NCBI GenBank assembly: GCA_002011125.2
Contig: MTMF02000009.1
Location: 1,146,989-1,210,988, forward strand
Length of the DNA stretch: 64,000 nt
DNA from: Candidatus Hydrothermarchaeum profundi
GTDB taxonomy: Archaea; Hydrothermarchaeota; Hydrothermarchaeia; Hydrothermarchaeales; Hydrothermarchaeaceae
Direction: 5' to 3'
The notes under the pieces were generated by a model. It did no database searches. It had not been told where the DNA came from and saw only the letters and a list, made by a program, of their open reading frames with translations. The translations under genes were made by a program, and so were the position numbers. Below are positions 5,508 through 21,038 of the stretch, piece after piece; position 1 is the first letter of the stretch, and each line of letters starts with the position of its first letter.

Positions 5508-5509
5508 TC

Positions 5510-6274
5510 TTAGAACGAGATACTTTGTATCTCTCTCTTCCATCGTGTTAGTCTCCTCTCTACTCTAACCATGATTTCATTAAAGAAAAATCCAATAAAG
5601 CCGATAGTGAATATCCCTGCGAACATTTTATCAGTTTTAAAAGTGTACTCTGCTTCTATTATCATTAAACCTAAGCCAGATCTAGCTCCTATCATTTCAG
5701 TCACGATCAGCAGAATCAGAGATACTGCCAAACTTAATCTAAGGCCCGTCATTATCGAGGGGAAGGCAGAAGGTAGTACTATTTTAGTTAAAGTTTGAAG
5801 CCTATTAGCTCCAAAAAGTTTAGCAACTTTCAGGAGGTTAACATCTACCTGTCTTACTCCCGATATAGTGTTCAATATGATAGGAAAATAGCAAGCGAAA
5901 GCTATAATCATTATCTTCGATAAGTTACCTATACCGAACCACAATATTGCAACCGGAATTAAAGCAACCGCGGGTATCGGCCTGAAAAGTTCAACTAGAG
6001 GGTTCGTCAAATCTTCGACTGTATTAAACCATGCTATAAGAATACCATGAGGTACTGCTATAATTGCCGCCAATAAGAAACCTAAAATAGCTCTATAAAG
6101 GCTTATGGTAGTATGTGTTATTAGTTCGCCACTTTGAAGTAATTTTATGATAGTGAGAAATATCTTACTTGGAGCAGGTAGAAAAATTGGGTTCACTAAT
6201 CCAAAATAGCAAATCCCTTCCCACACTAGGAAAAATCCCACAAGCGAGAAGGTCTTTCGTACTTTTCTATTCAT
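5510..6274 (-). CDS. ABC transporter permease, NitT/TauT (SsuC-like) family
   Basis: This 254-residue integral membrane protein has about six transmembrane segments. The binding-protein-dependent transport (EAA-type) region runs about 145-215 (KVAKLFGANRLQTLTKIVLP). The family imports nitrate, taurine, alkanesulfonates or thiamine precursors. It overlaps the upstream substrate-binding protein gene by 4 bp, giving a translationally coupled pair. No ATP-binding subunit is encoded in the visible cluster, so the ATPase must be elsewhere or beyond the window. The substrate cannot be told from sequence. Confidence 0.88.
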   Translation of the reverse strand: MNRKVRKTFSLVGFFLVWEGICYFGLVNPIFLPAPSKIFLTIIKLLQSGELITHTTISLYRAILGFLLAAIIAVPHGILIAWFNTVEDLTNPLVELFRPIPAVALIPVAILWFGIGNLSKIMIIAFACYFPIILNTISGVRQVDVNLLKVAKLFGANRLQTLTKIVLPSAFPSIMTGLRLSLAVSLILLIVTEMIGARSGLGLMIIEAEYTFKTDKMFAGIFTIGFIGFFFNEIMVRVERRLTRWKREIQSISF

Positions 6275-7227
6275 AGGAATCTATAGTCAATAAATTCATT
6301 TACAGTAACGTTTCTTCCAAGTGATTCAGGATCATATTTTTTAATTGCATCGATAATTTTTTTGAATGATTCATCGCTTACACGGCCAGAGGGATTAAAT
6401 TCTGGCCAAGGTATCTTCTTAGTTACTTCTATAGGAAGTCCCGTATCCATGGCTGCTATCTCCGGTACTTTATCTGGATTATCTATTGCCCACTGCAATC
6501 CCCTAAGATAGGCTTTAATGAAACTTTTTACCTTATCTGGATGGTTTTGTATGAAATCTTCGGTAAAGAATACCATTCCAAAGGGAACTCCCTCAGGGAA
6601 GACATCAGCTGGAGTGAAAACAACGTTTACTTTGTCTTCTAATTGAGGCATGGCCATCGGGAATACGAAAGCAGCATCTACTTCCCCATTTAAAAGAGCT
6701 TGAGGCATATTTGGGATTTTTACCTGCGTTATAGTAACTTCTGTATTGGGGTCTATCCCATTTTGCTCTAATCCTACTCTTAAGGTTAAATCAAGGAGGG
6801 TGCCTAATCGATGTACTGCTATTGTCTTTCCTTTTAGATCCGCCATATCCTCTATACCTGACGACTTTAAAACAACGAGATAGTCCCCGGGTTTTTCTTT
6901 AGTTCCTACTTCGCCTACTGCAACCACCTTAATTGGTACATCTTTTGACACCGCTCTAATTATCGCAGGAGTGGAGCCTATGACTCCTCCATCAAGTTCC
7001 CCTGCGATAACTGCTTCAATTACAGACGATCCTCCTCTAAAGCTTATCCATGAAATGTTCAATCCCTCCTCTTCATAAAATCCGTTATACATAGCGTAGA
7101 CTTCTGGTTGTGCAACGCCACCTAAGTATCCGATCCGAATAGTTGGTTCCTCTTTTTCTATGGGGCTAGAGGTAATACAACCTATAGTAACTATAAATAA
7201 TAGAATTCCTATAAGAAATCTCATCAA
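6271..7227 (-). CDS. ABC transporter substrate-binding lipoprotein, NMT1/SsuA-like
   Basis: This 318-residue protein has a lipoprotein signal: a hydrophobic stretch ending in TIGC near residue 17. It is followed by the periplasmic-binding-protein II fold of the nitrate/sulfonate/taurine family (IRIGYLGGVAQPEVYAMYNG, then GGSSVIEAVIAGELDGGVIGSTP). It would capture a small organic or anionic solute outside the cell for the coupled permease. It is the first gene of the leftward run. A 90-bp AT-rich divergent region separates it from the rightward radical SAM gene at 7318, so the two transcripts may share control. Confidence 0.85.
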   Translation of the reverse strand: MMRFLIGILLFIVTIGCITSSPIEKEEPTIRIGYLGGVAQPEVYAMYNGFYEEEGLNISWISFRGGSSVIEAVIAGELDGGVIGSTPAIIRAVSKDVPIKVVAVGEVGTKEKPGDYLVVLKSSGIEDMADLKGKTIAVHRLGTLLDLTLRVGLEQNGIDPNTEVTITQVKIPNMPQALLNGEVDAAFVFPMAMPQLEDKVNVVFTPADVFPEGVPFGMVFFTEDFIQNHPDKVKSFIKAYLRGLQWAIDNPDKVPEIAAMDTGLPIEVTKKIPWPEFNPSGRVSDESFKKIIDAIKKYDPESLGRNVTVNEFIDYRFL

Positions 7228-7293
7228 ACCACCTTTTTATTTTTTAATAATATTATATGTAAATATTTTTTTTAATATAAAATAAATATATAA

Positions 7294-7319
7294 ATACTTT
7301 ACGGAGAGTAATAAAGTAT
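7294..7319. promoter_or_regulatory. 8-bp inverted repeat over the start of the radical SAM gene
   Basis: ATACTTTA at 7294-7301 and TAAAGTAT at 7312-7319 are perfect inverted repeats 10 bp apart. The right arm covers the A and T of the ATG at 7318. The loop holds the ribosome-binding sequence GGAG (7303-7306). An AT-rich TATA-like stretch (AAATAAATATATAAATAC) lies just upstream. It could be the operator of the Lrp/AsnC-type regulator encoded by the next gene but one, or an RNA hairpin gating translation. Both readings are inference. Confidence 0.45.
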
Positions 7320-8370
7320 GGATATTGCTAATTTAAAAATGGAGTTGCAGGCGAAAGGGGTTAAAATTGACTATTCTTTAGAAGAGAAAATAGTTAAAAA
7401 ATTTCCAACAGCGACGAGCGACTATATGTCTTTTCTTATAGGAGATGTACCCGTAGCCATGTTGAATGGATACTACACTGATTCGTCACCTTTCGAAATA
7501 AAAATGAGGGGAAATAAATTCAGCATTTTTAAAAATGGAGATTTTTTGACGGATGTAGAGTTTCTTCAGCGGCCACGATTTTTTGATATATCTACGTCGG
7601 ATGGAGTTAGTATGGAAAAACTTGGCAAACTTGTTGCTCCTGGCTTCTTGATTGTCTACATGACAACTGGATGTATCTATTGGGGGGAGGCTCAATGTAA
7701 ATTTTGTGTAACAGGGTATATAGATACTTTGAAAATCAAAAAAGCTAGTTGGATAGCGGAATTAGCAGAAAAAGGGGCGAAGGAAATAAAGTCTCATATT
7801 GCCTTAACATCAGGGGCATTACCCAAGGATAGGGGAAGCAAATTACTCGCCGAGACTGTTAATTCTATAAAAGAAAGGGTAAATATACCTGTTTCGGTAA
7901 ATTTAGAGCCGCCACGGAATATGGGATGGTTAGACAAACTCTCGAATGCTGACTCCATATACATAAATTTGGAAGTATATGACGAAAAAGCTAGAGCACT
8001 ATTTTTACCCGGAAAAAGCGAATTTAAGCTTGAGTATTATGATAGAATATTTAAACGTTGTTTAGAAGTATTTGAGGAGAATCAGGTTGGTTCGGTATTG
8101 CTCGCTGGGTTAGAAGGCGAGAATACGTACCTAGAGGGTGTTGAGCATTTAGCGAGTTTAGGAGTCATGCCGGTAGTTATCCCTTTTTATCCCACATCTT
8201 TATCAAAGTTAAATTCCTTAAAACCACCTAGTGCAACTAAAATGAAGGAGATTTATCTTAACTCTATTGACATTATAAAGAGTTATGGATTAGATCCTTT
8301 TAAAACGAAAGCAGGATTTATGAGGGGTGGAGCATTGACTGCTATAAAGGAAGTGATGCGTGGTGTATAA
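7318..8370 (+). CDS. Radical SAM protein with C-x7-C-x2-C cluster motif
   Basis: This 350-residue protein has a TIM-barrel radical SAM pattern. The putative cluster motif GCIYWGEAQCKFC (about 118-130) has C-x7-C-x2-C spacing instead of the usual C-x3-C-x2-C. It is followed by VSVNLEPPRNMGWLDKL and SIYINLEVYDEKA, typical of biotin-synthase-like barrels. Exact relatives are not recognised; HmdB-type proteins are known to use longer first spacings. It is preceded by a palindrome and overlaps the following Lrp/AsnC regulator gene by 11 bp, so regulator and enzyme form one unit. The reaction is unknown. Confidence 0.72.
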   Translation: MDIANLKMELQAKGVKIDYSLEEKIVKKFPTATSDYMSFLIGDVPVAMLNGYYTDSSPFEIKMRGNKFSIFKNGDFLTDVEFLQRPRFFDISTSDGVSMEKLGKLVAPGFLIVYMTTGCIYWGEAQCKFCVTGYIDTLKIKKASWIAELAEKGAKEIKSHIALTSGALPKDRGSKLLAETVNSIKERVNIPVSVNLEPPRNMGWLDKLSNADSIYINLEVYDEKARALFLPGKSEFKLEYYDRIFKRCLEVFEENQVGSVLLAGLEGENTYLEGVEHLASLGVMPVVIPFYPTSLSKLNSLKPPSATKMKEIYLNSIDIIKSYGLDPFKTKAGFMRGGALTAIKEVMRGV

Positions 8371-8830
8371 GCTCGATGAGATTAATAAAGAGTTACTGAG
8401 ACTTCTAGGGAGGAATTCTAGGGCACAGTTTAGCGAGTTAAAGGAAGAGTTAGCTAAGAAAGGTTATGAACTTACAAGAGAGGCTGTAGAGTACAGGGTT
8501 AAAAAAATGATGAAAGAGGGGATAATAAAGGACTTTGCTATGTTTACTGATCCGGAGAAAATAGGCTATCAGCTCTGTTGTCATATAGAGATTCACGTAA
8601 AAGACCCTAGGAAAAGAGATGAAGTAGGTGAGATGTTGGCTGAACTACCCAATACCTCTTTAGTGCATGCAGGAACCACTATCTTTGATATAGCATGCAA
8701 GATATTTTTTACAGACCCTAAGGACATGTTTCAGTTTCTGGATATCTTAGAGAATGATAATAGAGTCAAGGATTTCAATGTCGATATAATAAGGAAAACA
8801 TACAAGGCAGGTCCAATAACTCCGTTATAG
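8360..8830 (+). CDS. Lrp/AsnC-family transcriptional regulator
   Basis: This 156-residue protein has an N-terminal winged-helix (about 5-60: LDEINKELLRLLGRNSRAQFSELKEEL...) and a C-terminal RAM-like alpha/beta domain (about 70-145). The start is GTG at 8360, inside the end of the radical SAM gene, so translation is probably coupled. Archaeal Lrp-type proteins bind palindromic operators and sense amino acids or related ligands. The perfect inverted repeat at 7294-7319 ahead of the same transcript is the obvious candidate target, which is inference. It could regulate the divergent importer as well. Confidence 0.85.
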   Translation: MVYKLDEINKELLRLLGRNSRAQFSELKEELAKKGYELTREAVEYRVKKMMKEGIIKDFAMFTDPEKIGYQLCCHIEIHVKDPRKRDEVGEMLAELPNTSLVHAGTTIFDIACKIFFTDPKDMFQFLDILENDNRVKDFNVDIIRKTYKAGPITPL

Positions 8831-8848: not shown

Positions 8849-9736
8849 TTAGAATAAATAGCAATGATCGCATTCAGCCTCGTAAGTTTCGTTATATTTT
8901 TTCATTATCTCTGGCGAGAGGTATGGAGGTATTCTCCTAAGAGCTTCTTCAAAGTGCCGGGCCTCTAAACTGTCAAATTCCTCACCCTTTTCACGGATAG
9001 CTATTATTTTAGCTTCCCTCACTACTCCTTCGATATCTGCTCCCACGTAGAATTCAGTTTTCTCTGCCAGATCTTCTAGTGAGACATCCTTTGATAAGGG
9101 GGTTCCTTTTAGATGAATCCTAAATATTTCTATACGTCCTTCATAGTCGGGAGCAGGAACATATATTTTCTTTTCTAATCTCCCTTTCCTTAATAACTGA
9201 GGATCAACCACGTCAGGACGATATGTACCCCCAATGGTTATTACGTCCTTACGACTGCTCATCCTATCAAGTTGTTCGTATAAGATCTTCGTAGTTTCTG
9301 TCGGAGCTAATCTTAGTGGAGCATCCCTAGTATGACTAATGGACCAAGGCAACTGCTGCTTCCTATTTGGTGCCAATGCATCTATTTCGTTAATAAATAC
9401 CACAGTTGGTGCTAACTCCAAAGCGGTGTCATACATCCTTTCTATTTCCTCGGGTTCGCTAATTATCTCTATGGCTTTTACTGTGATGTAACTGGCGTCA
9501 GCAGACTTTGCAGCTGCCTCAGACAATATAGTTTTTCCTCCGCCTGGAGGCCCCCATAGGAAAATACCGCTTGGTGGTTTTAATTCTACTTTGGCAAAAA
9601 TATCTGGCAATTTGAGAGGTAGAGATACCATCTCTCTTAAACGTTCTTTTGCATCGGTTAATCCACCAATCTCCTCCCAGCTCCATTTAGGTTCTTTTAT
9701 TCTGAAGTAGTCTCCCTGTCCGTTAACCTTTTTCAT
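8849..9736 (-). CDS. Single-domain AAA ATPase, Cdc48-like (paralog 1 of 3)
   Basis: This 295-residue protein has one AAA domain and no N-terminal substrate domain. Walker A is GPPGGGKT (62-69). Walker B is FINEID (114-119), with Asn for the usual Asp. In the sensor-1 strand GGTYRPD, Tyr replaces Asn. The arginine-finger region is LLRKGRLEKK. The last residues are CDHCYLF, a tail shared in pattern with the two AAA proteins at 12775-14539. It is the least altered of the three and the likeliest to hydrolyse ATP. It is transcribed alone, convergent with the Lrp gene. The substrate to remodel is unknown; the other two sit in a corrinoid methyltransferase operon. Confidence 0.85.
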   Translation of the reverse strand: MKKVNGQGDYFRIKEPKWSWEEIGGLTDAKERLREMVSLPLKLPDIFAKVELKPPSGIFLWGPPGGGKTILSEAAAKSADASYITVKAIEIISEPEEIERMYDTALELAPTVVFINEIDALAPNRKQQLPWSISHTRDAPLRLAPTETTKILYEQLDRMSSRKDVITIGGTYRPDVVDPQLLRKGRLEKKIYVPAPDYEGRIEIFRIHLKGTPLSKDVSLEDLAEKTEFYVGADIEGVVREAKIIAIREKGEEFDSLEARHFEEALRRIPPYLSPEIMKKYNETYEAECDHCYLF

Positions 9737-9786
9737 TATAGTATGTTGGATTGCTCACAAAAATATAAAATTAATGGAAGTATCAT

Positions 9787-10215
9787 ATGATATCCATGGA
9801 TTGCGAGTTTTGTGGAAATAAAATCATCCAGTATGGACTTTTTCCAAGGAGTTATAGACTTTATATTTATTTCTGCAAGCGTTGTCTAAGAGCTTTTTTG
9901 GCTCATCACTTTGATCTCAACCTAGAGATTTATCGAATTCAGGATCTGGATGTCAAAAAGAATGGCGAACTATTTTTCTTTTCAGGCCTCAAAGTTGAGC
10001 CAAGGGTTTTTGATTTTAAGGTAGATAGGAGTATAGATGCAGTAATCGTCGCATATAAAAATGATGTTCTAGGTGAACTTGCTAAGACGGATGGCTACAT
10101 ATATGCTCCTTATTCTAGGAAAGCGTTAAACACATTATGTAGATACCTAAAAGAAAAATGCGATATTGGTATAGTAACAAAAAAAGTTGCAGAGTTGTGG
10201 GAGCGAGCTGAATGA
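9787..10215 (+). CDS. Unknown protein with N-terminal CxxC zinc-finger-like motif
   Basis: I do not recognise this 142-residue protein. Its first 40 residues hold two CxxC pairs (CEFC, CKRC) followed by HH, which looks like a small zinc-binding domain. The rest is a mixed alpha/beta stretch without membrane segments. The start may be the ATG at 9787 or the in-frame ATG at 9796. A 12-bp palindrome (TATCATATGATA, 9781-9792) covers the first. It overlaps the next unknown gene by 4 bp (ATGA), so the two are an operon lying between an AAA gene and an FmdE gene on the other strand. Confidence 0.6.
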   Translation: MISMDCEFCGNKIIQYGLFPRSYRLYIYFCKRCLRAFLAHHFDLNLEIYRIQDLDVKKNGELFFFSGLKVEPRVFDFKVDRSIDAVIVAYKNDVLGELAKTDGYIYAPYSRKALNTLCRYLKEKCDIGIVTKKVAELWERAE

Positions 10216-10484
10216 TAGAAGAAATCGAAAAATATGTAGCTAGGATATTTGAGAACTTAAGTCCTTCCCAAAAAGCAACTTTAAAAGCTCTCATGTTTTC
10301 TGGATTTAAAGGGGAACGAGACCATATATTGCTCGAGCTTCTAAAAGAAATGGGAGAGGATAAAATATCTCATAGTGAACTCACTGAGTCTTTTACTTGT
10401 TCATTCGAGGGGGTACTTGTTAATTATTCGAGGATAAAGCCGGAATATTATAGAGCTGTTAGAAAGTTGCTCATGAAAAGTTAG
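10212..10484 (+). CDS. Unknown small acidic protein
   Basis: This 90-residue helical protein matches no family I know. Its start overlaps the stop of the zinc-finger-like gene upstream (ATGA), so it is translationally coupled and probably works with it. The sequence has helices rich in Glu and Lys and a single Cys (near 63). Its 3' end overlaps the 3' end of the convergent FmdE-like gene by 14 bp, which limits independent evolution of both ends. Coding status rests on the coupling and on the uninterrupted frame. Confidence 0.55.
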   Translation: MIEEIEKYVARIFENLSPSQKATLKALMFSGFKGERDHILLELLKEMGEDKISHSELTESFTCSFEGVLVNYSRIKPEYYRAVRKLLMKS

Positions 10485-11055
10485 AATAGCAAGGTATGCA
10501 AAGTAGTTTTCCATTTTTAACCTTAACATAATCTTTAAGAACAACCTCGCCGCACCTTTGGCATATCTCATGTTTTAGTGATGGTTCTTCAGCTGGTTTA
10601 AAAAGCGGAGCTTCGGAGAAAGAAAATAGCTTTTCATCGGGGAGCTTATTAAGTTCTTCTACAATCTCTGCGCCGGATTTAAAATGTTCTCTTGCTTCTT
10701 CTTCCCTATTCGAAGGCGGAAGCTTCTTAACTTCTTGTCCTTTTAATCCAAATTCCAAGACTTTTTCTAGGATGTCTCGTTTTACACTTATCCTAACAGA
10801 CCTACTATTAGCTAGATCATAGAAAGATGCAGCGAATTTTCCATAATCTAAGCAATAAAGATTATTTTTACCATATGTAGTTCCACAGACGTATTGTAAG
10901 CCATCTGAAAGACAGTTTTTGTATTCTACCACTGCTATAAGCTTTACACCGTTCTCTCTGGGTCTTCCAAGCACTTCAAGCGCCTTTTTACCCATTCTTA
11001 TGCCGAGAGCATACATCGGACACATGTGTCCGTGAAACCATCGAGGATCCTCCAT
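10471..11055 (-). CDS. FmdE-family protein with C-terminal zinc ribbon (second copy)
   Basis: This 194-residue protein has the FmdE signature at its very N-terminus (H8-G-H10-x-C12), then C48-x2-D51-G and C57 in a CGTTYG loop. The C-terminal zinc ribbon has CQRC and CIPC pairs (about 164-188). It is the same architecture as the protein at 3011-3781 but with no N-terminal extension. The conserved His/Cys/Asp set suggests metal binding; the biochemical role of stand-alone FmdE-zinc ribbon proteins is unclear to me. It is divergent from the methyltransferase gene at 11093 and convergent with the small unknown gene. Confidence 0.78.
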   Translation of the reverse strand: MEDPRWFHGHMCPMYALGIRMGKKALEVLGRPRENGVKLIAVVEYKNCLSDGLQYVCGTTYGKNNLYCLDYGKFAASFYDLANSRSVRISVKRDILEKVLEFGLKGQEVKKLPPSNREEEAREHFKSGAEIVEELNKLPDEKLFSFSEAPLFKPAEEPSLKHEICQRCGEVVLKDYVKVKNGKLLCIPCYSNFS

Positions 11056-11092
11056 GATATCTTTTTTAATACCTTATTATAAAGAATTTGTG

Positions 11093-11818
11093 ATGAAGAA
11101 AAAAATACAGGAATACTACTCCCGGAGGGCTGAGACCTATAGTGATTTAGATGCCCCAGCGACAATAGTCTCCGCAGTTAGATTTAGAGGGGTATTGGAT
11201 CATTTAAAAATAATATCTCCAAAAGAGAATGAAAGGATACTCGACATAGGGTGTGGTACTGGAAGATTTCTACAACCATTTTCTAAGGCAAAGGTTTGTG
11301 GTGTTGATCTCACTCTTAATATGCTTAATAAAGCAAAAGGACATGCTCCTCTAGTAAGGGCGGACGCGGAACATCTCCCTTTTAAAGATGCATCTTTTGA
11401 CATCGCTCATTCAGCAGGGTTATTAGGCATCTATCGTTCGTCAAAAGTTCTAGAGGAGGCGGCGAGAGTCGTTAAGGAAAATGGTAAAATCTATATCAGT
11501 TTTCCAGCTGCAACCAGCGTGAGTGGGATAGTTTCATTAATATTTCAAAAATTATTCCGGTATAATCCTTCGCTATTTGACTATTGGTATACCAAAAAAG
11601 ACATACGGAGAATGTTTCCTCCAGAAGTCGAGCTAGTTAAAATTTATAGGTTGGGATGGGAGCCTCCTTTCCAAAGGTGGTTTAAAGAATTGGAATCTAG
11701 GAAGCTTGTTAAACTCTTCTTATTTCTTGAGAATATTTTGAAAAACAAGCCTTTTTTTAAATATTTTTGTGCGAGATTTTTAGCGGTAGGCGTAGTTGGA
11801 GCTAGTAGAAGCTCTTAA
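11093..11818 (+). CDS. SAM-dependent methyltransferase (Methyltransf_11 type)
   Basis: This 241-residue class I methyltransferase has motif I ILDIGCGTGRFL near residue 45, then GVDLTLNML, the acidic loop ADAEHLPFKDASFDIAHSAGLLG, and AARVVKENGKIYISFP. I chose the ATG at 11093 (MKKKIQEYYSRRAETYS), which fits the family's typical opening; an earlier in-frame ATG at 11054 would overlap the divergent FmdE start. This class methylates small molecules, lipids, quinones or proteins; the substrate is unknown here. The C-terminal half is aromatic and basic and may contact membrane or lipid. Confidence 0.82.
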   Translation: MKKKIQEYYSRRAETYSDLDAPATIVSAVRFRGVLDHLKIISPKENERILDIGCGTGRFLQPFSKAKVCGVDLTLNMLNKAKGHAPLVRADAEHLPFKDASFDIAHSAGLLGIYRSSKVLEEAARVVKENGKIYISFPAATSVSGIVSLIFQKLFRYNPSLFDYWYTKKDIRRMFPPEVELVKIYRLGWEPPFQRWFKELESRKLVKLFLFLENILKNKPFFKYFCARFLAVGVVGASRSS

Positions 11819-11900
11819 ATAAGGCGGCATCTGTGTTATTATCTTATAGGATAGAATTTTAAAAAAATTAATATAATTTGACCGATTTTTCTCTATTTGA

Positions 11901-11926
11901 TTAGATTATTGGAGGTGAAAATCTAA
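11901..11926 (+). promoter_or_regulatory. Inverted repeat enclosing the ribosome-binding site of the flavin-type gene
   Basis: TTAGATT (11901-11907) and AATCTAA (11920-11926) form a perfect 7-bp inverted repeat whose 12-nt loop holds the strong Shine-Dalgarno GGAGGTG (11911-11917). The right arm includes the A of the start codon at 11926. As RNA this could present or hide the start; as DNA it could be an operator. The layout is the same as at 7294-7319 although the arm sequences differ. Confidence 0.4.
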
Positions 11927-12342
11927 TGTCTTTGCCGGAGGATTTCCATGAGATATTTAGCAATTATTGTGCTTCTGGCAGACCTATAGTATGGGTCTCT
12001 ACGATTGATGACGGAACACCGCATCTTGTTCCCGTATGTTTTGTTAAGGTTTTAGGGGAAGATAAGATTCTAATCGCTAATGTCTTTATTAAAAAGACGG
12101 TTAGGAACATAGAGAAAGGCTCTAAAATAGCAGTCGGGGCAGTTGTAAAAGAAGACGGTTTTAAGGGGTACATGATTAAAGGTAGAGCAGAAAACCTAAA
12201 AGAAGGAAAGCTTTTTGAGGACTTCGCTAAAGAGGTTTCAGATAAAAGTGGCGGTAGAAGGAAGCCAAAATCTGCAGTACTAGTAACGATAGAAGAAGTT
12301 TATTCTTTAAAACCATATGAAGGGCGTAAGAGGATTATTTAA
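11926..12342 (+). CDS. Pyridoxamine 5'-phosphate oxidase-like FMN-binding split-barrel protein
   Basis: This 138-residue protein has the split beta-barrel pattern: PIVWVSTIDDGTPHLVPVCFVKVLGEDKIL, then VRNIEKGSKIAVGAVVKEDGFKGYMIKGRAE. Such proteins bind FMN, F420 or heme; small archaeal members are often flavin reductases or of unknown activity. Translation should be strong (GGAGGTG, 8 nt before the ATG). It is transcribed alone and ends 2 bp before the convergent ParB-like gene. The exact cofactor cannot be told from sequence. Confidence 0.75.
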   Translation: MSLPEDFHEIFSNYCASGRPIVWVSTIDDGTPHLVPVCFVKVLGEDKILIANVFIKKTVRNIEKGSKIAVGAVVKEDGFKGYMIKGRAENLKEGKLFEDFAKEVSDKSGGRRKPKSAVLVTIEEVYSLKPYEGRKRII

Positions 12343-12344
12343 TA

Positions 12345-12740
12345 TCACCATAACTCTTTTATCTTACCTAGGATGTATTTTTCAATCCCGAACTCTGCGT
12401 CTTTATTCGGGATCATAACCAGAGCCTTCCATGGAATTCCTAAGTCCCAGACAGCTCTCGCCCTTCTATGACCGTCGATCAGTATATCTTTATCAGGCTT
12501 TCTGAGAATGATTATAGGACAGGCATAGCCATGTTCTATTGCCTTCTTTATTTCCACAACTTTTTTAGCAAAGGTAACGCGGTTCTCTTCTCCCGGAAAG
12601 GTGTAGTGGACATCTCCTAGCTTACTTTTATCTATTATCTCCTCTTTTTCCTCAAATTTCAATTCTTCATGGACAGCTTCATAAGACCTTATTACATCCT
12701 TAAACAGGATCTTCTCCTCATATTCCTGAATCAATGTCAT
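12345..12740 (-). CDS. ParB/sulfiredoxin-fold protein
   Basis: This 131-residue protein carries the ParB/Srx core: CPIIILRKPDKDILIDGHRRARA (about 74-96), with the D89-G-H-R-R nucleotide-binding box. ParB relatives bind CTP, sulfiredoxin binds ATP, and archaeal SerK uses ADP to phosphorylate free serine, so this is likely a nucleotide-binding enzyme or switch. It lacks the ParB DNA-binding helix-turn-helix. I chose ATG 12740 (MTLIQEYEEK), since the longer frame would overlap the AAA gene upstream. It is the last gene of the methyltransferase-corrinoid-AAA operon, 34 bp after the AAA gene, so it probably serves that system rather than chromosome partition. Confidence 0.72.
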   Translation of the reverse strand: MTLIQEYEEKILFKDVIRSYEAVHEELKFEEKEEIIDKSKLGDVHYTFPGEENRVTFAKKVVEIKKAIEHGYACPIIILRKPDKDILIDGHRRARAVWDLGIPWKALVMIPNKDAEFGIEKYILGKIKELW

Positions 12741-12774
12741 GTTAATCCAATATATTTCTTCATTTTTAAAGCTT

Positions 12775-13653
12775 TCAAAAATTGTATTTATGGATGCAAT
12801 CTTCTGAGATGATTTTGTTGTAGTCCTCTGCCATCGCATGTGATAACCAGGGTTTTATTTTTTCTTTTGCTTCTAGCATATCCCTCATGGTGACATAGGA
12901 TGAGTTGTTGCCTGACCTTTCTAGCGTGTTTAGAATCGCTTTCCTACATAGAGCTTCTAAGTCCCATCCCACATAATATTCTGTGATTTCAGCGATTTTT
13001 TTTAAGTTCACATCATTAGCTAGTTTAGCATTTCTCAGATAATATTTCAAAATTTTTAATCTATCGCTTTTATTTGGCATTGGAACGTATATTTTTCTAC
13101 CTAACATGTTGGTTCTGGTAAAAGCCTGATCTAGAACGTCTATTCGATATGAAGATGCCGCTACTATTATGCTATCGACAGAGGCGACTCTCTCTACTTC
13201 TTTATAGACAGTTTGATGAACTTGGGGAGTTCCAAATTTATCAGGCTTGCCTGTTGTCGTGCCATCCTTCCACCTATAATCTGCACCTTCTCTAGGACAA
13301 AGCCAATCTATATCCATTAAGTGGACTACGCAGGGGGCATTCTTTAATGCTAACTGGAATCCCTTTTTTATGACTTCTGGCTTGTCTGTGCATTCTCTCC
13401 CCCTTATTAAAATATAATTAGTTCCAGCCTCCTTTGCTGCAGCCTCTATCAAATGTCCTTTTCCAGTACCTAGCGGTCCCCATACTATCACTCCGGTTGG
13501 CGGAGTTAATGAAGCTTTTTTTAATTCTTCACGATATTTTAGAGGAACTACGATCATCTCTCTAAATTTTTCTTTAACATTTTCGTAACCAGCTATTTGT
13601 TCAAAACTAAACCTCGGTTCTCTCATATCTATGTATATCTGGTCGTAGTCCAT
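12775..13653 (-). CDS. Single-domain AAA protein with altered Walker motifs (paralog 2 of 3)
   Basis: This is a 292-residue AAA module. The Walker A region is GPLGTGKGH (59-67): K65 is kept but the following Thr is Gly. Walker B is HLMDID (111-116) with Met-Asp for Asp-Glu, so the Mg-coordinating Asp is gone and the catalytic Glu is shortened. The segment LDQAFTRTNMLGRKI keeps arginine-finger-like residues. The C-terminus ends CIHKYNF, matching the Cys-x-His-x-Tyr-x-aromatic tail of its two paralogs. The start is ATG 13653, 5 nt after GGGGGA and 14 nt after the neighbouring AAA gene, rather than the longer frame that overlaps it. Nucleotide binding is likely; hydrolysis may be slow or absent. 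Confidence 0.82.
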   Translation of the reverse strand: MDYDQIYIDMREPRFSFEQIAGYENVKEKFREMIVVPLKYREELKKASLTPPTGVIVWGPLGTGKGHLIEAAAKEAGTNYILIRGRECTDKPEVIKKGFQLALKNAPCVVHLMDIDWLCPREGADYRWKDGTTTGKPDKFGTPQVHQTVYKEVERVASVDSIIVAASSYRIDVLDQAFTRTNMLGRKIYVPMPNKSDRLKILKYYLRNAKLANDVNLKKIAEITEYYVGWDLEALCRKAILNTLERSGNNSSYVTMRDMLEAKEKIKPWLSHAMAEDYNKIISEDCIHKYNF

Positions 13654-13666
13654 AGGAGTCCCCCTT

Positions 13667-14539
13667 TTAGTACATGTATCTGTGCTTACACTCTTCTTTG
13701 TAAATCTCTTCATATCTGCTTATAAGTTCTGGTGAAAGTGAGGGAGGTATCCTTTTCATCGCTTCCTTAAAGTGTCGTAGTGATACTTTTTCGAACGTCT
13801 TGCCATTCTCCTTTATTGCGATTAAGGTGGCTTCTCGTGGGAGAGATATTAAATCCGAACTAGAATAGTTTTCAGTAATTTCAGATATTACCTCAGGCGA
13901 TGCATCTTCTGCGAGAGGAATTTTTTTAAGGGACAGCCTTAGAATTTCTAATCTATCATAGTAGTCTGGCGCGGGAACGTATATTTTTCTATCTAATCTT
14001 CCATTACGGAGTAAGGCAGGGTCGATTATATCTGGGCGGTTGCTTCCTCCAATCGTAATAACTTTATCATTTTTTGCAGATTTATCGATTTCACGTAAGA
14101 ATCTCCTAGTAGTGTTAGGAGGAGCTATTTTACGTGGGGGTTCTAAAAGACCCGATTGAGCTTCTCGCCTTGGGGCTAATACTTCGATTTCATTAATGAA
14201 AATAACACATGGGGCAATCTTAGTTGCATCTTTGTACAGGTGTGTTATCTGATGTTCGTTTTCAATTATCCTAGAAGCTTCTACGGAGATATACATAGCA
14301 TTGGCATCTGAAGCAGCCGCTTCGGCTAAAGTACGCATGCTTGTTTTTGGGGGACCCCACATTAGTATTCCATTTCTTGGTCTTAGGTCAGCTTTTTTAA
14401 AAGCCTCTGGATATTTTAAGGGTAAGGATACCATTTCTTCTAATCTTTTTTTTACCTCTGTAAAGCCTCCAATATCTTCAAATTTGATTACCGCTTCCCT
14501 TATTTTATAGCACTGACCGGGATCGAGTATCTCGCACAT
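13667..14539 (-). CDS. Single-domain AAA protein with a dead P-loop (paralog 3 of 3)
   Basis: This is a 290-residue AAA module. The P-loop reads GPPKTSMRT (62-70). Aligned to GPPGGGKTI in the 8849 paralog, the Walker A Lys becomes Met68 and the Thr becomes Arg69. Walker B is FINEIE (114-119). Sensor-1 GGSNRPD and the arginine-finger region LLRNGRLDRK look normal. ATP hydrolysis at its own site is therefore unlikely, but it could supply an arginine finger to a neighbour in a mixed ring. The C-terminus is CKHRYMY. It sits 2 bp after a UroD-type methyltransferase gene and 14 bp before the next AAA gene, firmly inside the corrinoid methyltransferase operon. Confidence 0.84.
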   Translation of the reverse strand: MCEILDPGQCYKIREAVIKFEDIGGFTEVKKRLEEMVSLPLKYPEAFKKADLRPRNGILMWGPPKTSMRTLAEAAASDANAMYISVEASRIIENEHQITHLYKDATKIAPCVIFINEIEVLAPRREAQSGLLEPPRKIAPPNTTRRFLREIDKSAKNDKVITIGGSNRPDIIDPALLRNGRLDRKIYVPAPDYYDRLEILRLSLKKIPLAEDASPEVISEITENYSSSDLISLPREATLIAIKENGKTFEKVSLRHFKEAMKRIPPSLSPELISRYEEIYKEECKHRYMY

Positions 14540-14541: not shown

Positions 14542-15603
14542 TTAGGCCTTCCCAAATTTTCTTGAAGCATTTACCATTGCATAAAGGTTTTTAAAAGGAG
14601 TCTGCGAGTGGAGACCACAACTACTAGAGACTATATAACTATACTTCCCAGCTTTATTGATGCAGTTTTTGACGTTCTCTTCAACATCTCGTTCAGACCC
14701 CTTGTGGAGAGTGCCCACAGAGACGTTTCCGAAAAGAGCGACTTTATTTCCAACTTCTTTCATTGCTTTATTAAGATCTACTGACTCATCTACACTCAAG
14801 CAAACTGCCCCAGTCTTTGCGAGGTCTTTGAGTATAGGGGAAGTGTCTCCACATATGTGTATAATAACTTCCCCCCCGTACTTCCTTAGAGCGCTACAAA
14901 CTTTTTTTTCATAAGGATATGCGAACTCCCTATAATGTTTTGGTGAGATAACTTGCGATGCTGCAGAAGGATCTTCGATCATGATTCCGTGAGTACCTAT
15001 ATCTATTTGCTTCTTCCCGATCTCTATAGCAGCCTCAGCCATGAAATTTAAGAGCTTGTGAACTTCATTTTTTCTTATACTCATATCCAGCATGAAGTTT
15101 TCCATACCTCGAATCCATTCAGCGGCATAATGAAATGGTGCAGGCACTTTACTGCAGATATATACCTCCCCCTTAGTTATCTTAAGTAGTTCTTGCAGGG
15201 GCTCCCACCTTTCTTCATTATCTGTGTCGGGCATTTTTAATTCGTCTAGCTGTGAATAGTCACTTATAGCAGGTTCCCTCACAGCAGGTCCTCCATTAAG
15301 AGGTATCTTAAGCTTAGTTCCCCACTCAGTTGGCAATACCGCATATCCATCAATTATTTTTAAGCTCTTACGTTCCTCTTTGGTAATTCCTTGTATTGGC
15401 TGATGATTGAATATCCAGTCGTATCCGTACTTCCTCTGTGCTTTTAACTGTCCTTTTACGTAGAGTTCATTATTAGTAACGTATTCCCAAGGCTTTACTC
15501 CTAAAACTTTAGAGGCATGAGGGACATTGACCATTGGGGCTACCGGTAGATAATCTAGTGAATCTCCTTCTAACGCAGCTCTGAATCTTTCAACAGATTT
15601 CAT
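14542..15603 (-). CDS. UroD-type corrinoid methyltransferase (MtaA/MtbA-like)
   Basis: This 353-residue protein of the uroporphyrinogen decarboxylase superfamily has the zinc set of methylcobamide methyltransferases: H249-x-C251 in IIHICGD and C329 in SSSCGLH. MtaA/MtbA proteins move a methyl group from a corrinoid protein to coenzyme M; other UroD-type members demethylate substrates onto corrinoid proteins. Its start overlaps the corrinoid-protein stop by 4 bp (ATGA), so the two are partners. Two AAA genes follow. Whether coenzyme M or another thiol is the acceptor cannot be said. Confidence 0.85.
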   Translation of the reverse strand: MKSVERFRAALEGDSLDYLPVAPMVNVPHASKVLGVKPWEYVTNNELYVKGQLKAQRKYGYDWIFNHQPIQGITKEERKSLKIIDGYAVLPTEWGTKLKIPLNGGPAVREPAISDYSQLDELKMPDTDNEERWEPLQELLKITKGEVYICSKVPAPFHYAAEWIRGMENFMLDMSIRKNEVHKLLNFMAEAAIEIGKKQIDIGTHGIMIEDPSAASQVISPKHYREFAYPYEKKVCSALRKYGGEVIIHICGDTSPILKDLAKTGAVCLSVDESVDLNKAMKEVGNKVALFGNVSVGTLHKGSERDVEENVKNCINKAGKYSYIVSSSCGLHSQTPFKNLYAMVNASRKFGKA

Positions 15604-16226
15604 TTCTTCTCCCTCATGATCCTCTCGCAGAGAAGTACTGCTTTTCTAGCGTCACTGCCATAACCTTGGACACCAAGCTCTTTTGCATACTCTTCAGTAG
15701 CGGCAGCTCCCCCAATAATAAAAGCATATTTTTCCCTTAAACCATGTTTTTCGAATTCTTCTATTACCCTTTTCATCCCCTCAATAGTGGTGGTCATCAT
15801 TGCGGATAATCCTACAATATCCGCCCTGAACTCTTTTGCCTTCTCTACGAAGTCTATGGCAGGTATATCTCTTCCAATATTGTACACCTTAAAGCCTGCT
15901 CCTTCTAAGAACATTGCTACGAGGTTCTTTCCTATATCATGAACATCGCCTTCGACACTTCCTATTACTATTCTTCCTGTGGCCTCTGATTTTTCATAGT
16001 CTAATAGAGGCTTAAGGATATCAAGGCCTCTCTGCATAGCATAAGCAGATAATAATGTTTCAGGAACATAGTACTCTTTTTTCTCAAATTTTTCTCCTAC
16101 TATCTCCATGCCTGAGATCATTTCTCTGAGGATTTCCTCAGGTTTAAGGCCATTATCAAGAGAGTTTCTAATGAGAGTTTCTATGTTATCTATATCCCCA
16201 TTAATGACGGCTTCTTTAATGGACAT
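15600..16226 (-). CDS. Methyltransferase cognate corrinoid protein (MtaC/MtbC-like)
   Basis: This 208-residue protein has an N-terminal helical cap (1-85) and a cobalamin-binding Rossmann domain. The lower-ligand motif is D94-x-H96-x2-G99 in VEGDVHDIGKN, followed by VYNIGRDIP and an IIGGAA stretch near 170. The cobalamin cobalt would shuttle a methyl group between two methyltransferases. Both flanking genes encode UroD-type methyltransferases, and the downstream one overlaps by 4 bp. No MtaB/MtbB/MttB-type substrate methyltransferase is present, so either one of the UroD proteins takes the methyl from the substrate or that subunit is encoded elsewhere. Confidence 0.92.
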   Translation of the reverse strand: MSIKEAVINGDIDNIETLIRNSLDNGLKPEEILREMISGMEIVGEKFEKKEYYVPETLLSAYAMQRGLDILKPLLDYEKSEATGRIVIGSVEGDVHDIGKNLVAMFLEGAGFKVYNIGRDIPAIDFVEKAKEFRADIVGLSAMMTTTIEGMKRVIEEFEKHGLREKYAFIIGGAAATEEYAKELGVQGYGSDARKAVLLCERIMREKK

Positions 16227-16341: not shown

Positions 16342-17358
16342 TTAGCGTCTTGTATTGTAGGAGACTTTCACCATCTCTGTTATATTTTCTTCTCTAGCAC
16401 TTCGTGGGACTACGCATCCAGAACTTAGGACTACCCTTTCCTGTAGTTCCACGACTTTCTCAGAGATTTTTCTAATTTCTGATGGAGTGCCTCTAAAGAG
16501 TAGATTGGAAGGTACATTTCCCCATGCAGGTATTTTTTCCCAGACTAATTTTATGTCAGTCATTTCATCGAAACTCAAGCAACTCGCTCCGGTTCTACTC
16601 ACATCGTCTAGTATTTTACTGATATCTCCGCATATATGGAGTATTACTGGTACATCCTTTGTTATTTCTTTTATAAGTCTGCGTTCATATTTGAAGACAA
16701 ATTTTCGGTAATCTTCAGGGGAAATTAGTGATGAAGAAGCTGATGAATCTGGTATAAAAATCGCATGTGCTCCTACTTCAATCTGAGCTTTGGCGATTTC
16801 TAGGCAGCGATCAAGTGAAAAATCGAGTAGTTTTAAGATAAAATCTCTATCTTTTTTCATCTCTACCAAAAATTTTTCAAGAGGATATAAGAAGGTTGAA
16901 GCAAAAGTAAATGGAGCTCTAGTTGTACCGCAAACAAAATCTTCTTTTTCAAGCATATATCTTAGCGGCGCCGTCCTTTCTTTTGAGAATTGATCTGGGA
17001 TATTAATTTTGTCAAGCTCTTCCTTGCTTTTTAACGCAGGCTCTAAAGTTTGAGGCGACCCATGGGAAGATAGCAGTATCTTAGTTCCTAACTCTAACTG
17101 TAGAATAACTCTATCGTCTTGGTAAATTACATTTTTCCTCTCCCACTTGGTGATTCCTTGAAACGGTTGATGAGCCCAGACCCAATCATACCCATGATGA
17201 CGTTTACATGCAATCTGGGCTTCTGCATATTTTTTATTATCCAACACATACTCTTGGGGACTAATACCATATATTTTTGAAGCATAACCAGAGGTTATTA
17301 GAGGCGCAACCGGGACTCTCTCAACTTTCTTGCCTGTGAGGGTTTCTAGTATATTCAT
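16342..17358 (-). CDS. UroD-type corrinoid methyltransferase (second paralog)
   Basis: This 338-residue relative of the protein at 14542-15603 has the zinc ligands H241-x-C243 (ILHICGD) and C315 (SSGCVVP). It also shares the opening DWVWAHQPFQGITKWERK with DWIFNHQPIQGITKEERK in its paralog. It is first in the leftward operon; a 115-bp gap before the corrinoid gene may hold a second promoter. The two paralogs could work in opposite directions, one loading and one unloading the corrinoid protein. Assigning which is which is inference. Confidence 0.85.
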   Translation of the reverse strand: MNILETLTGKKVERVPVAPLITSGYASKIYGISPQEYVLDNKKYAEAQIACKRHHGYDWVWAHQPFQGITKWERKNVIYQDDRVILQLELGTKILLSSHGSPQTLEPALKSKEELDKINIPDQFSKERTAPLRYMLEKEDFVCGTTRAPFTFASTFLYPLEKFLVEMKKDRDFILKLLDFSLDRCLEIAKAQIEVGAHAIFIPDSSASSSLISPEDYRKFVFKYERRLIKEITKDVPVILHICGDISKILDDVSRTGASCLSFDEMTDIKLVWEKIPAWGNVPSNLLFRGTPSEIRKISEKVVELQERVVLSSGCVVPRSAREENITEMVKVSYNTRR

Positions 17359-17418
17359 TCTAACTGGAATTTGCTACAAAATTATTTAAACATTTATCAG
17401 CGCAATTATTTCGGAGAA

Positions 17419-18336
17419 ATGATAGAAGTAAGTAAGGTTTCAAAAAGCTTTGGTGGTTATAGTGCAGTAAAAGATGTTAGCTTTAATGTTGAGGAGGGGG
17501 AGATATTTGGGATTTTAGGTCCTAATGGTGCAGGTAAAACCACTCTGATATCAATGCTTTCTACTGCTATAATACCTGACTCAGGGGAAATTACAATATT
17601 CGGCCTAGATGTATCTACTCATGCAAAGGAGATTAGAAGATCTATCGGGGTTATTTTTCAGAATTCAAGTCTAGATGATAAACTAACATGCAGAGAAAAT
17701 CTTTGGATAAGCGCATCTCTTTATGGAGTATCTAGAGTGGAAAGGCTAAAGAGAATACAAGAAAAGCTGGAGTTAGTCGGTCTTGACGAGTGGGAGAATA
17801 CCCTCGTAAAGAAGTTGTCTTGGGGAATGAAAAGACGTCTTGAGATAGCTAGAGCCTTGATCTCGAACCCTAAAGTTCTTCTGATGGATGAGCCTACCTT
17901 AGGTCTTGATCCAAAGGCGAGATTTGATTTATGGGAGCATTTAGAGAATCTTGGGGTAACTGTTGTTTTGTCTACTAATTATATGGAAGAGGCAGATAGG
18001 CTTTGTAATAAAATTGCTTTAATGGATGCGGGAAGATTAGTTGCTATAGATACGCCACAGGATCTTAAAAACACTATTAAGGGCGATGCTATAACCTTGA
18101 GAGTGAGAGACTATAAAAAGATAGCTTCAAAATTAAAGGAAGAATATGCTAGTCTAAAAGTGGTTGGGGAAAAAATAATCATATATACTGGTGGGGGAGA
18201 GGGGGAAGTTTCTAGGCTGGTTAGGAGGATAGGGGAAGACTTAGTATCTATAGAGATGAGGCAGCCAAATCTTAACGATGTATTCCTTGAGTATACTGGA
18301 AAAGAGCTTAGGAGTCCAGAGTTGAATGAACATTGA
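17419..18336 (+). CDS. ABC transporter ATP-binding protein, DrrA/ABC-2 type
   Basis: This 305-residue ATPase is counted from ATG 17419 (MIEVSKVSKSFGG), which has GGAG just upstream and fits the family start. Walker A is GPNGAGKTT (34-42) and Walker B is LLMDEPT (154-160). The signature reads LSWGM (133-137) instead of LSGGM, and the switch histidine is Asn187 (STNYMEEA where the paralog at 30945 has TSHYMEEA). Both changes usually reduce hydrolysis. It is paired with the permease that starts 11 bp before its stop. DrrA-type systems export drugs or lipids; the substrate is unknown. Confidence 0.88.
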   Translation: MIEVSKVSKSFGGYSAVKDVSFNVEEGEIFGILGPNGAGKTTLISMLSTAIIPDSGEITIFGLDVSTHAKEIRRSIGVIFQNSSLDDKLTCRENLWISASLYGVSRVERLKRIQEKLELVGLDEWENTLVKKLSWGMKRRLEIARALISNPKVLLMDEPTLGLDPKARFDLWEHLENLGVTVVLSTNYMEEADRLCNKIALMDAGRLVAIDTPQDLKNTIKGDAITLRVRDYKKIASKLKEEYASLKVVGEKIIIYTGGGEGEVSRLVRRIGEDLVSIEMRQPNLNDVFLEYTGKELRSPELNEH

Positions 18337-19084
18337 AATTATAAGTACAATATGGATTAGGGAACTTAAGCGGTATTTTCGCGAGCGAGGGCAATTTTTG
18401 AGTACTATCTTTATATCTTTGCTCTGGCTCCTAATCTTCGGGATTGGGATAGGTTCGATGAGAGTAGGTCGATTGTCAAATTATCAGTCCTTTATTTATC
18501 CAGGAGTTATAGGTATGGCATTATTGGTGACTTCGATTAGGTCTGGTATAACAATAATAAGGGATAAGGAACTCGGATTTATCAATTTTCTTCTTATAGC
18601 CCCTGTATCAAGGAGTACTATCCTCATTGGCAAGACAATGGGGGCTATAACTATCACGTTGATCCAAGGTTTAATACTACTTGGGCTATCTTTTGTGGTA
18701 AATGTTGGTCTAAGTCTTTCAGCTGTGGCGTCTTCGATAGTTATTATGGCTCTAATGAGTATAGGGCTTGTTAGTATAGGGCAGGTGATAGCTTCTAGAA
18801 TGGAATCATTTGAAGGGTTCAATATGTTCATGAGTCTTTTAATAATGCCTATGTTTTTTTTAAGCGGGGCTTTATTTCCTATTAAGGGCCTCCCCGAGTG
18901 GCTGAGGATACTTAGTTATCTGAATCCCCTTACCTACGGTGTTGACGCTTTAAGAATAGTACTGATAGGTTCAGATTTCGCAGTTTTAGATTTGGTGGGA
19001 GATGTAATAATACTATTTTTCTTTTCTTTGATTATGCAGTTCTTTGCTTTAGTAGCTTTTAAAAAAATGGATATATTACCATAA
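18326..19084 (+). CDS. ABC-2 type transporter permease
   Basis: This 252-residue membrane protein has about six transmembrane segments and the ABC-2 family end pattern FFLSGALFPIKGLPEWLRILSYLNPLTYGVDALR. It overlaps its ATPase gene by 11 bp and ends 1 bp before a convergent gene. It resembles the permease at 30199-30948, so the window holds two related ABC exporters. It would form the pore as a dimer with the ATPase at 17419. The substrate is unknown. Confidence 0.9.
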   Translation: MNIEIISTIWIRELKRYFRERGQFLSTIFISLLWLLIFGIGIGSMRVGRLSNYQSFIYPGVIGMALLVTSIRSGITIIRDKELGFINFLLIAPVSRSTILIGKTMGAITITLIQGLILLGLSFVVNVGLSLSAVASSIVIMALMSIGLVSIGQVIASRMESFEGFNMFMSLLIMPMFFLSGALFPIKGLPEWLRILSYLNPLTYGVDALRIVLIGSDFAVLDLVGDVIILFFFSLIMQFFALVAFKKMDILP

Positions 19085-19085: not shown

Positions 19086-21038
19086 TTACTTAGAGAGATT
19101 AGATTCTCTCGTAACTCCCGGTAATGTAAAAGTTCCTTCCTTATATGCTAGCCTAGCAAATAAGTTGGGGTCAGGTACTTTCTCCAGATGCCACAGGAAA
19201 ATGTTATCATACAATAGATCGCTTGCAAGATCATGAACTACTTGAGCCTTGGAAGGTAACATCCCCATTCCTTGTAGCTTCATCATCATAGGGATCCTAT
19301 TCAGCGACCTTCCTCTATACTGGCTTCTTCTAGCTTCTAGGTATTCATCTGCAGAAAGACCCCTCGCCGCCCTCGCATATGCTTCCAACCATAACTTCTT
19401 CTCGGAAAATCCTCCGCTAAGTTTTTTGGCTTCCTCGACAGATGTAAGCTTTTCTAGATTATCCAGCAAAATAAAGCCTCGTATGTAGGTCCCCGTTAAC
19501 TCTTTAAGAGTCATAAAGTCCGGTTTTTGGATTAGTGATTTTTCAAGCTCTTGTCCTTTAACTACATTTTCTGTTAGATTAGTTAAGAAAATATCAAGAG
19601 GGGGGGTTGTAGCCTTTTCAGCCTCTTCTTTAATAATATCGACATCCACATCCAAGTAAAGTGGTCTATCTTTTATCATGTCTGAAAGAAATCTTGTTTT
19701 CTGAAGTTGGAATGCTTTCCTCTGACTACCTACCAATCTAAAATTCACTCCATCCACTAGGAATATGTGTCCCGTAGGGGTCCCATCTTCAATAATATCG
19801 AAGATATAGTTTGGTTCTCCATCATAATAATAAGGACCTCTTACGATTATTCCTTCGCCTTCTAATAGGAGGGGATATCCCTTCAAGACATCTCTAGCGG
19901 TCTCCAAGTCGATACCACCTGCTTTTATCGTTATGTCTACCGTATCTACATTTTTTATCTTATGGGATATCAGTTCCATTGGAGAGGGTACACGGAATTC
20001 ATCCGACGAGGCATAAGATTGAGAAGTAAATCCCAGAGTTATTGCTCCGATCACAAGTAGGGCTATAATAAACATTGGCCGTCTCCTCGTTAATATCAGC
20101 ACCGATATAGCCAATAGGATAATGATAGTAGGGCCACATACGGCTTTTCCACTTTCAGCTACTTTTTGAACACCAAGGCGTTTTTTTGCATTTTCAATTT
20201 CAGGAAGATAGTCATATGATAGAATATCTTTCCTTAAAGATATCTCACTATCTAGTATTTTCGCATTCTCTCCTACAAGCTCTACTTCCCTTAGAATACT
20301 CTCTTTAGTAACTACTATATCCCACTTCTCCCTAATAGTAGTACCTGGAGGATACTCTTCTAATTCCCCCGTGAACACCTTTAAATCTAGTCCCAGTTGT
20401 AAGTAATCCGAGAATACTTTGTCATATGCTTCAATTAGTTTTTGAAATCCTTCATATGAGTACTTACCTGTTGCTGAGGATTCATGGATTTCTATTAAGA
20501 GGTTAGGGGGCGTTCTGCTGTACCTGAAGGTGTAAGAATCTTCAGGATAAAGTATAGAGTTGGTAATTCTACTTACTTCGGCAATATCTTCTGCGAGTTT
20601 CTCATAGTCTGTCAGGAAAGTTTCTAATTGTACTCTCTCCTCGTCTGTTAAGGTTGAAAAACTGGCGAAGTTTCTCACATTTTGTGTTTCATATTTTGCT
20701 GCAAGAGGTATCTTTGTATAATCTCCTATAGCATAGAATAACGGATCCCAGAGAGTCAGAGTTTTAAGGTCTCTTGTTGCGAACACTTTTCGCATGACTT
20801 CTGCATCGGTAACGAACTGTGATTTTAATTCATCATAAACTAACGACCCCTTCTTCTCCCCCATTAGCATATAATCAGCTATGAAATAGGGGTTGTTATC
20901 AACGTAAAACGGTCCCTCTATTAAAATAGCCTCTCCATTAGAGTATTTAGTTGCGGATTCTCTTACTTCGTTTGGTGATGCATATACGGGAGATATCAGT
21001 AAAATAACAGCCAATAATGTACAAAGTACTTTCATCAT
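19086..21038 (-). CDS. Unknown exported membrane protein with internal duplication
   Basis: This is a 650-residue protein of no family I recognise. It has a signal peptide (LLAVILLISPVYA), a first extracellular half (about 20-295), two close hydrophobic segments (about 305-345), then a second half. The halves are related: IEGPFYVDNNPYFIADYM near residue 40 matches VRGPYYYDGEPNYIFDII near 400, each followed by a short loop and a QFV/NFRLV strand. So an ancestral domain was duplicated around a transmembrane hairpin. Its gene is divergent (54 bp) from a sensor kinase and convergent with an ABC exporter. It could be a surface sensor or an adaptor of either; this is unproven. Confidence 0.7.
   Translation of the reverse strand: MMKVLCTLLAVILLISPVYASPNEVRESATKYSNGEAILIEGPFYVDNNPYFIADYMLMGEKKGSLVYDELKSQFVTDAEVMRKVFATRDLKTLTLWDPLFYAIGDYTKIPLAAKYETQNVRNFASFSTLTDEERVQLETFLTDYEKLAEDIAEVSRITNSILYPEDSYTFRYSRTPPNLLIEIHESSATGKYSYEGFQKLIEAYDKVFSDYLQLGLDLKVFTGELEEYPPGTTIREKWDIVVTKESILREVELVGENAKILDSEISLRKDILSYDYLPEIENAKKRLGVQKVAESGKAVCGPTIIILLAISVLILTRRRPMFIIALLVIGAITLGFTSQSYASSDEFRVPSPMELISHKIKNVDTVDITIKAGGIDLETARDVLKGYPLLLEGEGIIVRGPYYYDGEPNYIFDIIEDGTPTGHIFLVDGVNFRLVGSQRKAFQLQKTRFLSDMIKDRPLYLDVDVDIIKEEAEKATTPPLDIFLTNLTENVVKGQELEKSLIQKPDFMTLKELTGTYIRGFILLDNLEKLTSVEEAKKLSGGFSEKKLWLEAYARAARGLSADEYLEARRSQYRGRSLNRIPMMMKLQGMGMLPSKAQVVHDLASDLLYDNIFLWHLEKVPDPNLFARLAYKEGTFTLPGVTRESNLSK

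Follow-up and report, generated by a model that had tools for sequence, protein, structure and literature searches.

A 64-kb stretch (64,000 nucleotides; the window) of contig MTMF02000009.1 from Candidatus (Ca.) Hydrothermarchaeum profundi encodes three paralogous proteins of the AAA superfamily on its minus strand, named A, B and C here. B and C are the last genes of an apparent operon with the order MtaA2, corrinoid protein, MtaA1, B and C, in which MtaA1 and MtaA2 are MtaA/UroD-like methyltransferases, and A is encoded alone on the same strand about 3 kb beyond this operon (Table 1). A first-pass annotation made from the sequence alone had described the three as single-domain AAA modules without substrate domains, and its reading frames, motifs and tails were all confirmed: each protein is one AAA module plus lid with no N-domain (Pfam AAA and AAA_lid_3), PF00004 being above its cut-off in all three and PF17862 in A and C, with the lid match of B below the cut-off (20.7 of 27.2 bits). 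The classic features of the superfamily (AAA domain plus lid, RxGR arginine-finger region) are present in A, B and C, which are 35-48% identical to each other. The start codon of C is the ATG at 13653, located 13 bases past the stop codon of B and preceded by a GGGGGA sequence that resembles a ribosome-binding site; a longer open reading frame upstream of this ATG overlaps the end of B.

The nearest known proteins, both by sequence (A shares about 42-48% identity with the CDC48 domains of its phylum) and by fold, are archaeal CDC48/VAT and the D2 domain of p97, with which the trio has the AAA-plus-lid layout in common. The predicted structure of A shows an ordinary AAA fold, with p97 D2 as its closest match (Foldseek E 7e-28); the predicted structure of C was weak (predicted local distance difference test score, pLDDT, of 75) and was left unused. 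Unlike CDC48/VAT, the trio consists of three unequal single-domain paralogues that lack the N-domain, pore loop 1 and the Walker B aspartate, with a changed sensor 1 and a new C-terminal tail, CxHxYx[FY], and the scores of 238, 170 and 210 bits do not reach the NCBIfam CDC48 cut-off of 802 bits. In a phylogenetic tree the family forms one clade apart from CDC48 and PAN (support 100/100), within which A, B and C are each supported as a clade. Given this separate clade and the lost pore loop and Walker B, an assignment as ordinary CDC48/PAN paralogues was excluded. A relationship to the anti-phage proteins IetA and TRIP13 was rejected also, the matches being weak and generic to AAA proteins.

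A, B and C are all present in five of 23 Ca. Hydrothermarchaeota genomes, and no family member was detected in the other 18 at the thresholds used. The five trio genomes span three families, two of which include close relatives without the trio, and the A orthologues of the four further genomes are 62-65% identical to that of the window. A scan of 84,980 species, which used two A-type peptide patterns only and which distant relatives with other motifs could escape, added a sixth genome (L054, labelled Methanocellales archaeon), a partial assembly of about 0.8 Mb in which one undivided A/B-like protein and C are encoded by adjacent genes. This was the only genome matched by the A/B/C profile among 394 of its phylum, three other matches being CDC48-sized proteins. 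The C profile had no match in some 370 further archaea of the set of relatives or in 152 genomes of another archaeal phylum; viral contigs contained no relatives, and plasmids yielded only generic AAA matches below 60% identity. The G+C fraction of the operon is 0.39, that of the window is 0.385, and the copies in other genomes lie in DNA of about 0.46-0.58; by base composition, recent transfer of the operon looks unlikely. The trio is thus classified, by alignment and phylogeny, as an undescribed, CDC48-derived, single-domain AAA family, and it is nearly certain that the family and its co-inheritance are real.

The residues of the ATP site were compared in an alignment of 17 family members with CDC48 and PAN sequences, mostly from the same phylum. 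All A proteins have the P-loop GPPGGGKT, as does the undivided protein of the sixth genome, and the catalytic glutamate is retained by A in every genome. B, in which the first-pass annotation had noted the absence of the P-loop lysine, has lost the P-loop in every genome, differently ruined in each lineage, and yet both arginines of the RNGR finger are kept by B in all genomes. Conversely, the first finger arginine of A has been lost in three of the four Hydrothermarchaeota lineages, where the motif reads KKGR or TKGR, so that P-loop and arginine finger are split between A and B in those three lineages, and the undivided protein possesses both the P-loop and an RNGR finger. Because A loses the finger but keeps the P-loop and B does the reverse, the degeneration of the ATPase is complementary, not stepwise as previously described. 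C had been called impaired, which is correct but understated: its P-loop is GPLG[TS]G[KR][GAW], with the lysine replaced by arginine in two genomes and with threonine or serine never present at the final position, and it keeps the first finger arginine and lacks the second.

In the tree the undivided protein groups with A at 87/90, and placement with B (p-AU 0.12) or outside A plus B (p-AU 0.07) is also accommodated; division after duplication is therefore a reading of the motifs. Alternatively, the undivided protein may be a B that never lost its loop, with A missing through the incompleteness of the sixth genome. Decay of B to a pseudogene was excluded by a nonsynonymous to synonymous substitution ratio (dN/dS) of 0.043 between G006 and G007 (one pair) and by its invariant finger and tail; despite its dead P-loop, B is by this ratio under purifying selection.

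The one subunit expected to be active, A, is doubtful as such. None of the 17 aligned members has the Walker B aspartate, its position being occupied by asparagine in A and the undivided protein, by asparagine, serine, glycine or arginine in B, and by methionine in C (in the window, NE in A and B and MD in C, compared to DE in CDC48), and the sensor-1 asparagine is replaced by tyrosine in A, the undivided protein and C, remaining asparagine in only two B proteins. Since both substitutions occur in the A of every genome, A is not plainly active, and slow turnover is expected because even A has asparagine for the Walker B aspartate. The clamp-loader subunit Rfc5 has the same natural aspartate-to-asparagine change in Walker B as A, with reduced ATPase activity (PMC3740443). 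A feature missed by the first-pass annotation is that pore loop 1 (KWVGES or KYIGEG, with its aromatic-x-G motif), present in the CDC48 and PAN sequences, is deleted in 17 of 17 family members, which makes CDC48-like threading unlikely. These residues make it probable that the family hydrolyzes ATP slowly or acts as a nucleotide switch, and is not a threading unfoldase. A mixed ring that no longer hydrolyzes ATP, in which the nucleotide of A is structural only and the three proteins form a fixed scaffold holding the corrinoid protein together with both MtaA-like enzymes in one complex, would account for the loss of the Walker B aspartate throughout, the replaced sensor-1 asparagine of A and C, and the missing pore loop 1; it would leave needless the GPPGGGKT motif and catalytic glutamate of A and the two finger residues of B, which are kept everywhere, and is considered unlikely.

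The common C-x-H-x-Y-x-aromatic tail noticed previously holds up with respect to its cysteine and histidine, which are invariant in all 17 members (two of only 24 invariant columns among 287 family-wide), but not entirely with respect to its tyrosine, which is serine in one A orthologue that ends in SLF. Cysteine and histidine are thus the residues of the tail that matter most, being never lost. Each paralogue has its own form of the tail across the five Hydrothermarchaeota genomes, and the tail is more conserved than the rest of the protein in B (8 of 8 columns, p=2e-4) and C (7 of 8 columns, p=0.005); no clear excess was found for A (6 of 8 columns, p=0.13). In the predicted structure of A, a confident helix (275-290) is followed by a disordered end. 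CDC48 proteins of this phylum end in TYMG or VYMG/A, and because their tyrosine is likewise at position -3, the tail may be partly inherited, as a CDC48 tail modified by the addition of Cys-x-His. This matching tyrosine, in RYMY, CYLF and KYNF, raises the question of whether the tails dock on the 20S proteasome as in CDC48 and PAN, with the AAA trio serving as adaptor or gate when a client is degraded: the HbYX tails of CDC48 are thought to bind the 20S core (PMC5070193), and a gene at 49960-50703, named from its sequence only, resembles a proteasome alpha subunit. However, the penultimate tyrosine of HbYX is absent (the tails end in YLF, YMY, YNF and SLF), the tyrosine at -3 has been replaced once while the cysteine and histidine are constant, and the pore loop 1 required for threading (PMC5511170) is gone, so that proteasome docking is very improbable.

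The association with corrinoid proteins that had been suggested for follow-up was found in every trio genome of the Hydrothermarchaeota. The genes of the corrinoid protein and MtaA1 are directly joined to B and C in all five (in G016 the C gene is split over contig ends), with tight spacing kept across four lineages. MtaA1 orthologues (66-72% identical) and corrinoid-protein orthologues (E < 1e-68) are both restricted to the same five genomes. MtaA2 adjoins A in G006 and G007 and is located within the run of corrinoid protein, MtaA1 and B in G016. Soluble coenzyme M methyltransferases (MtaA, MtbA, MtsA) and mlp clusters likewise combine several MtaA-like proteins that keep their zinc ligands with one corrinoid protein, and mlp clusters encode a Ram/RACE activase (PMC10418091). 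Here, in contrast, the AAA pair is in the place of Ram/RACE, and no match to RamA (PF14574) was found within the 64-kb window; the operon that places B and C with the corrinoid protein recurs in all five genomes.

Table 1. Coordinates of the AAA genes and associated genes in the window
Feature	Position	Strand	Remarks
AAA-A	8849..9736	-	intact P-loop (GPPGGGKT); Asn for Asp in Walker B (FINEID); Tyr at sensor 1; tail ECDHCYLF
AAA-C	12775..13653	-	P-loop GPLGTGKG (Lys without Thr/Ser after it); HLMDID; second finger Arg lost; tail DCIHKYNF
AAA-B	13667..14539	-	P-loop lost (GPPKTSMR); both residues of the arginine finger retained (ALLRNGRLDR); tail ECKHRYMY
MtaA/UroD-like methyltransferase 1 (MtaA1)	14542..15603	-	HxC...C zinc ligands retained; two bases separate its end from the start codon of B
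Methyltransferase cognate corrinoid protein	15600..16226	-	overlaps MtaA1 by 4 bases
MtaA/UroD-like methyltransferase 2 (MtaA2)	16342..17358	-	zinc ligands kept
ABC-2 type transporter	17371..19084	+	ATPase 17371-18336; permease 18326-19084
Exported 650-aa protein	19086..21038	-	two similar halves with a transmembrane hairpin between them

The three zinc ligands are kept by both MtaA-like proteins in all aligned members, which together with the invariant cysteine and histidine of the tail and a third candidate ligand in A (C-x-H-C) would suit a tail that is a metal site and a complex that loads metal or cofactor, for example by supplying the MtaA-like enzymes with zinc or the corrinoid protein with cobamide. 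Each tail offers only two ligands, however, and Cys-x-His could equally be a binding peptide; other corrinoid/MtaA sets in these genomes do without such a loader, and this function is judged improbable.

RamA genes adjoin several other corrinoid genes of the phylum (for example G000:C9 at 1595142 and 1597118; G006:C14; G016:C46), unlike the corrinoid gene of this operon. A role of the trio as a genome-wide substitute for RamA was excluded, as RamA is present in G000, G006, G007 and G016. The genome that contains the window (G000:C9, 2.2 Mb) encodes seven or more corrinoid proteins along with two activases of RamA type, more than its relatives.

A short ParB-like protein is encoded directly after C (12345-12740) and is not beside C in other genomes. 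The region neighbouring A (9787-11818) is a separate module of four genes, for a CxxC protein, a 90-aa protein, FmdE with a zinc ribbon and a UbiE-type methyltransferase; this cassette is intact in G006 and in G010, which lacks the trio, and is found in L054 with a more distant FmdE. Further along (738-8830) are genes for a 2-hydroxyacyl-CoA dehydratase D-like protein, an FmdE protein, a B12-binding radical SAM protein, and an ABC uptake system of NMT1/THI5 type beside an MSMEG_0568-like radical SAM gene and an Lrp regulator, in an order partly kept in G011 (L092).

Beyond MtaA2, the window encodes an ABC-2 type transporter and an exported protein of 650 amino acids (aa), which has no match in Pfam, NCBIfam, PADLOC or the Protein Data Bank (PDB). 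The gene for the 650-aa protein is present in six of six genomes that have the AAA family and in none of 18 others (24 compared), a co-distribution with a chance of 1 in 134,596 if the genomes were independent, which they are not, and it was not found elsewhere among 394 archaea; further diverged copies occur in G011. The transporter is near A in G006 and G007 and beside the 650-aa gene in the window and in G016. Because the sixth genome has the 650-aa gene near the AAA pair, on the same contig, and no corrinoid gene was found there, an older function of the family with the exported protein and the transporter, such as assembly of a surface or export complex to which the corrinoid link was added later in Hydrothermarchaeota, must be weighed. 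It is rated a minor possibility, given that the 650-aa gene of G006 is far from the AAA genes, that the corrinoid protein and MtaA1 are joined directly to B in all five Hydrothermarchaeota, and that the sixth genome is only partial.

The loss of the finger by A paired with its retention by B is new evidence for the mixed ring of active and structural subunits proposed in the first-pass annotation, and the conserved trio, the fixed differences among ATPase motifs and the shared tail agree with what such a ring predicts; what is disfavoured is ordinary threading in the manner of CDC48. Homologues without the tail or the altered motifs, and trio genes that never occur together, were looked for, and the idea survived. 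It is fairly likely, judging from these conserved differences, that A, B and C form a mixed assembly, which would be descended from a single CDC48-like domain. Direct contact of A with B, dividing one ATP site between them, is the simplest reason for keeping both: A would provide the cis half of a working site (P-loop and catalytic glutamate), the arginine finger of B would complete it in trans, and the subunits would follow the pattern of clamp loaders and RFC, with B as stator and C as structural arm. Clamp loaders (the bacterial gamma complex, RFC) also combine subunits that have live P-loops with stators that lend arginines, and the bacterial delta-prime stator has a dead P-loop and still provides an arginine finger. 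This is a likeness in logic, an analogy and not kinship, as the trio belongs to a different AAA branch and has no clamp, DNA or collar domain.

The assembly would then be opened and closed by binding and slow hydrolysis of ATP, and would not pull a chain through itself. The candidate client is the corrinoid protein together with both of its MtaA-like partners, with chances about evenly balanced and less certainty than the shared ATP site; the operon link, the absence of RamA here and a gene position like that of Ram/RACE in mlp clusters suggest ATP-linked upkeep or gating of the corrinoid complex. The assembly may gate or reset the methyltransferase complex, for example by exposing the corrinoid for re-reduction or for exchange of partners, from the place in the operon that RamA holds in other corrinoid operons, and the tail may be a flexible end that joins subunits or client by means of a docking pocket or a metal bound in common. 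RamA/RACE activases are unrelated proteins with an ASKHA-type fold and Fe-S centres, none of whose features are found in A, B or C; a job possibly in common, by gene neighbourhood, is ATP-linked corrinoid upkeep beside the corrinoid protein. Nothing was found in the literature on AAA proteins in corrinoid activation.

Several observations weigh against this interpretation. Four of the five trio genomes (G000, G006, G007, G016) possess RamA, so that reactivation of corrinoid may not need the AAA proteins. No orthologue of the corrinoid protein or of MtaA was found in the sixth genome, itself a partial assembly of about 0.8 Mb, and the methyltransferase link is therefore seen only in Hydrothermarchaeota. 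The A of the window still has RKGR, with both finger arginines, which means that the division of the site is incomplete here, and the asparagine in Walker B and tyrosine in sensor 1 may leave even A without ATP hydrolysis. Taking these together with the evidence above, a mixed ring that shares one ATP site and acts as a nucleotide-driven helper of the corrinoid/MtaA complex is proposed tentatively, as a conjunction whose chances fall somewhat below even. The most ambitious version, in which a three-subunit ATP switch without pore loops resets a corrinoid methyltransferase as the first AAA-type corrinoid activase, with a metal-linked C-terminal collar, is unlikely.

The trio is a clear natural example of an AAA motor with an active site apparently split between gene duplicates, in a CDC48-derived family that abandoned the threading apparatus. 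Because another lineage still has an undivided A/B-like protein, the transition from one subunit type to a ring that must be mixed is open to direct testing. If the corrinoid link is true, the family would represent, in an archaeal phylum about which little is known, a way to maintain corrinoid proteins additional to RamA/RACE.

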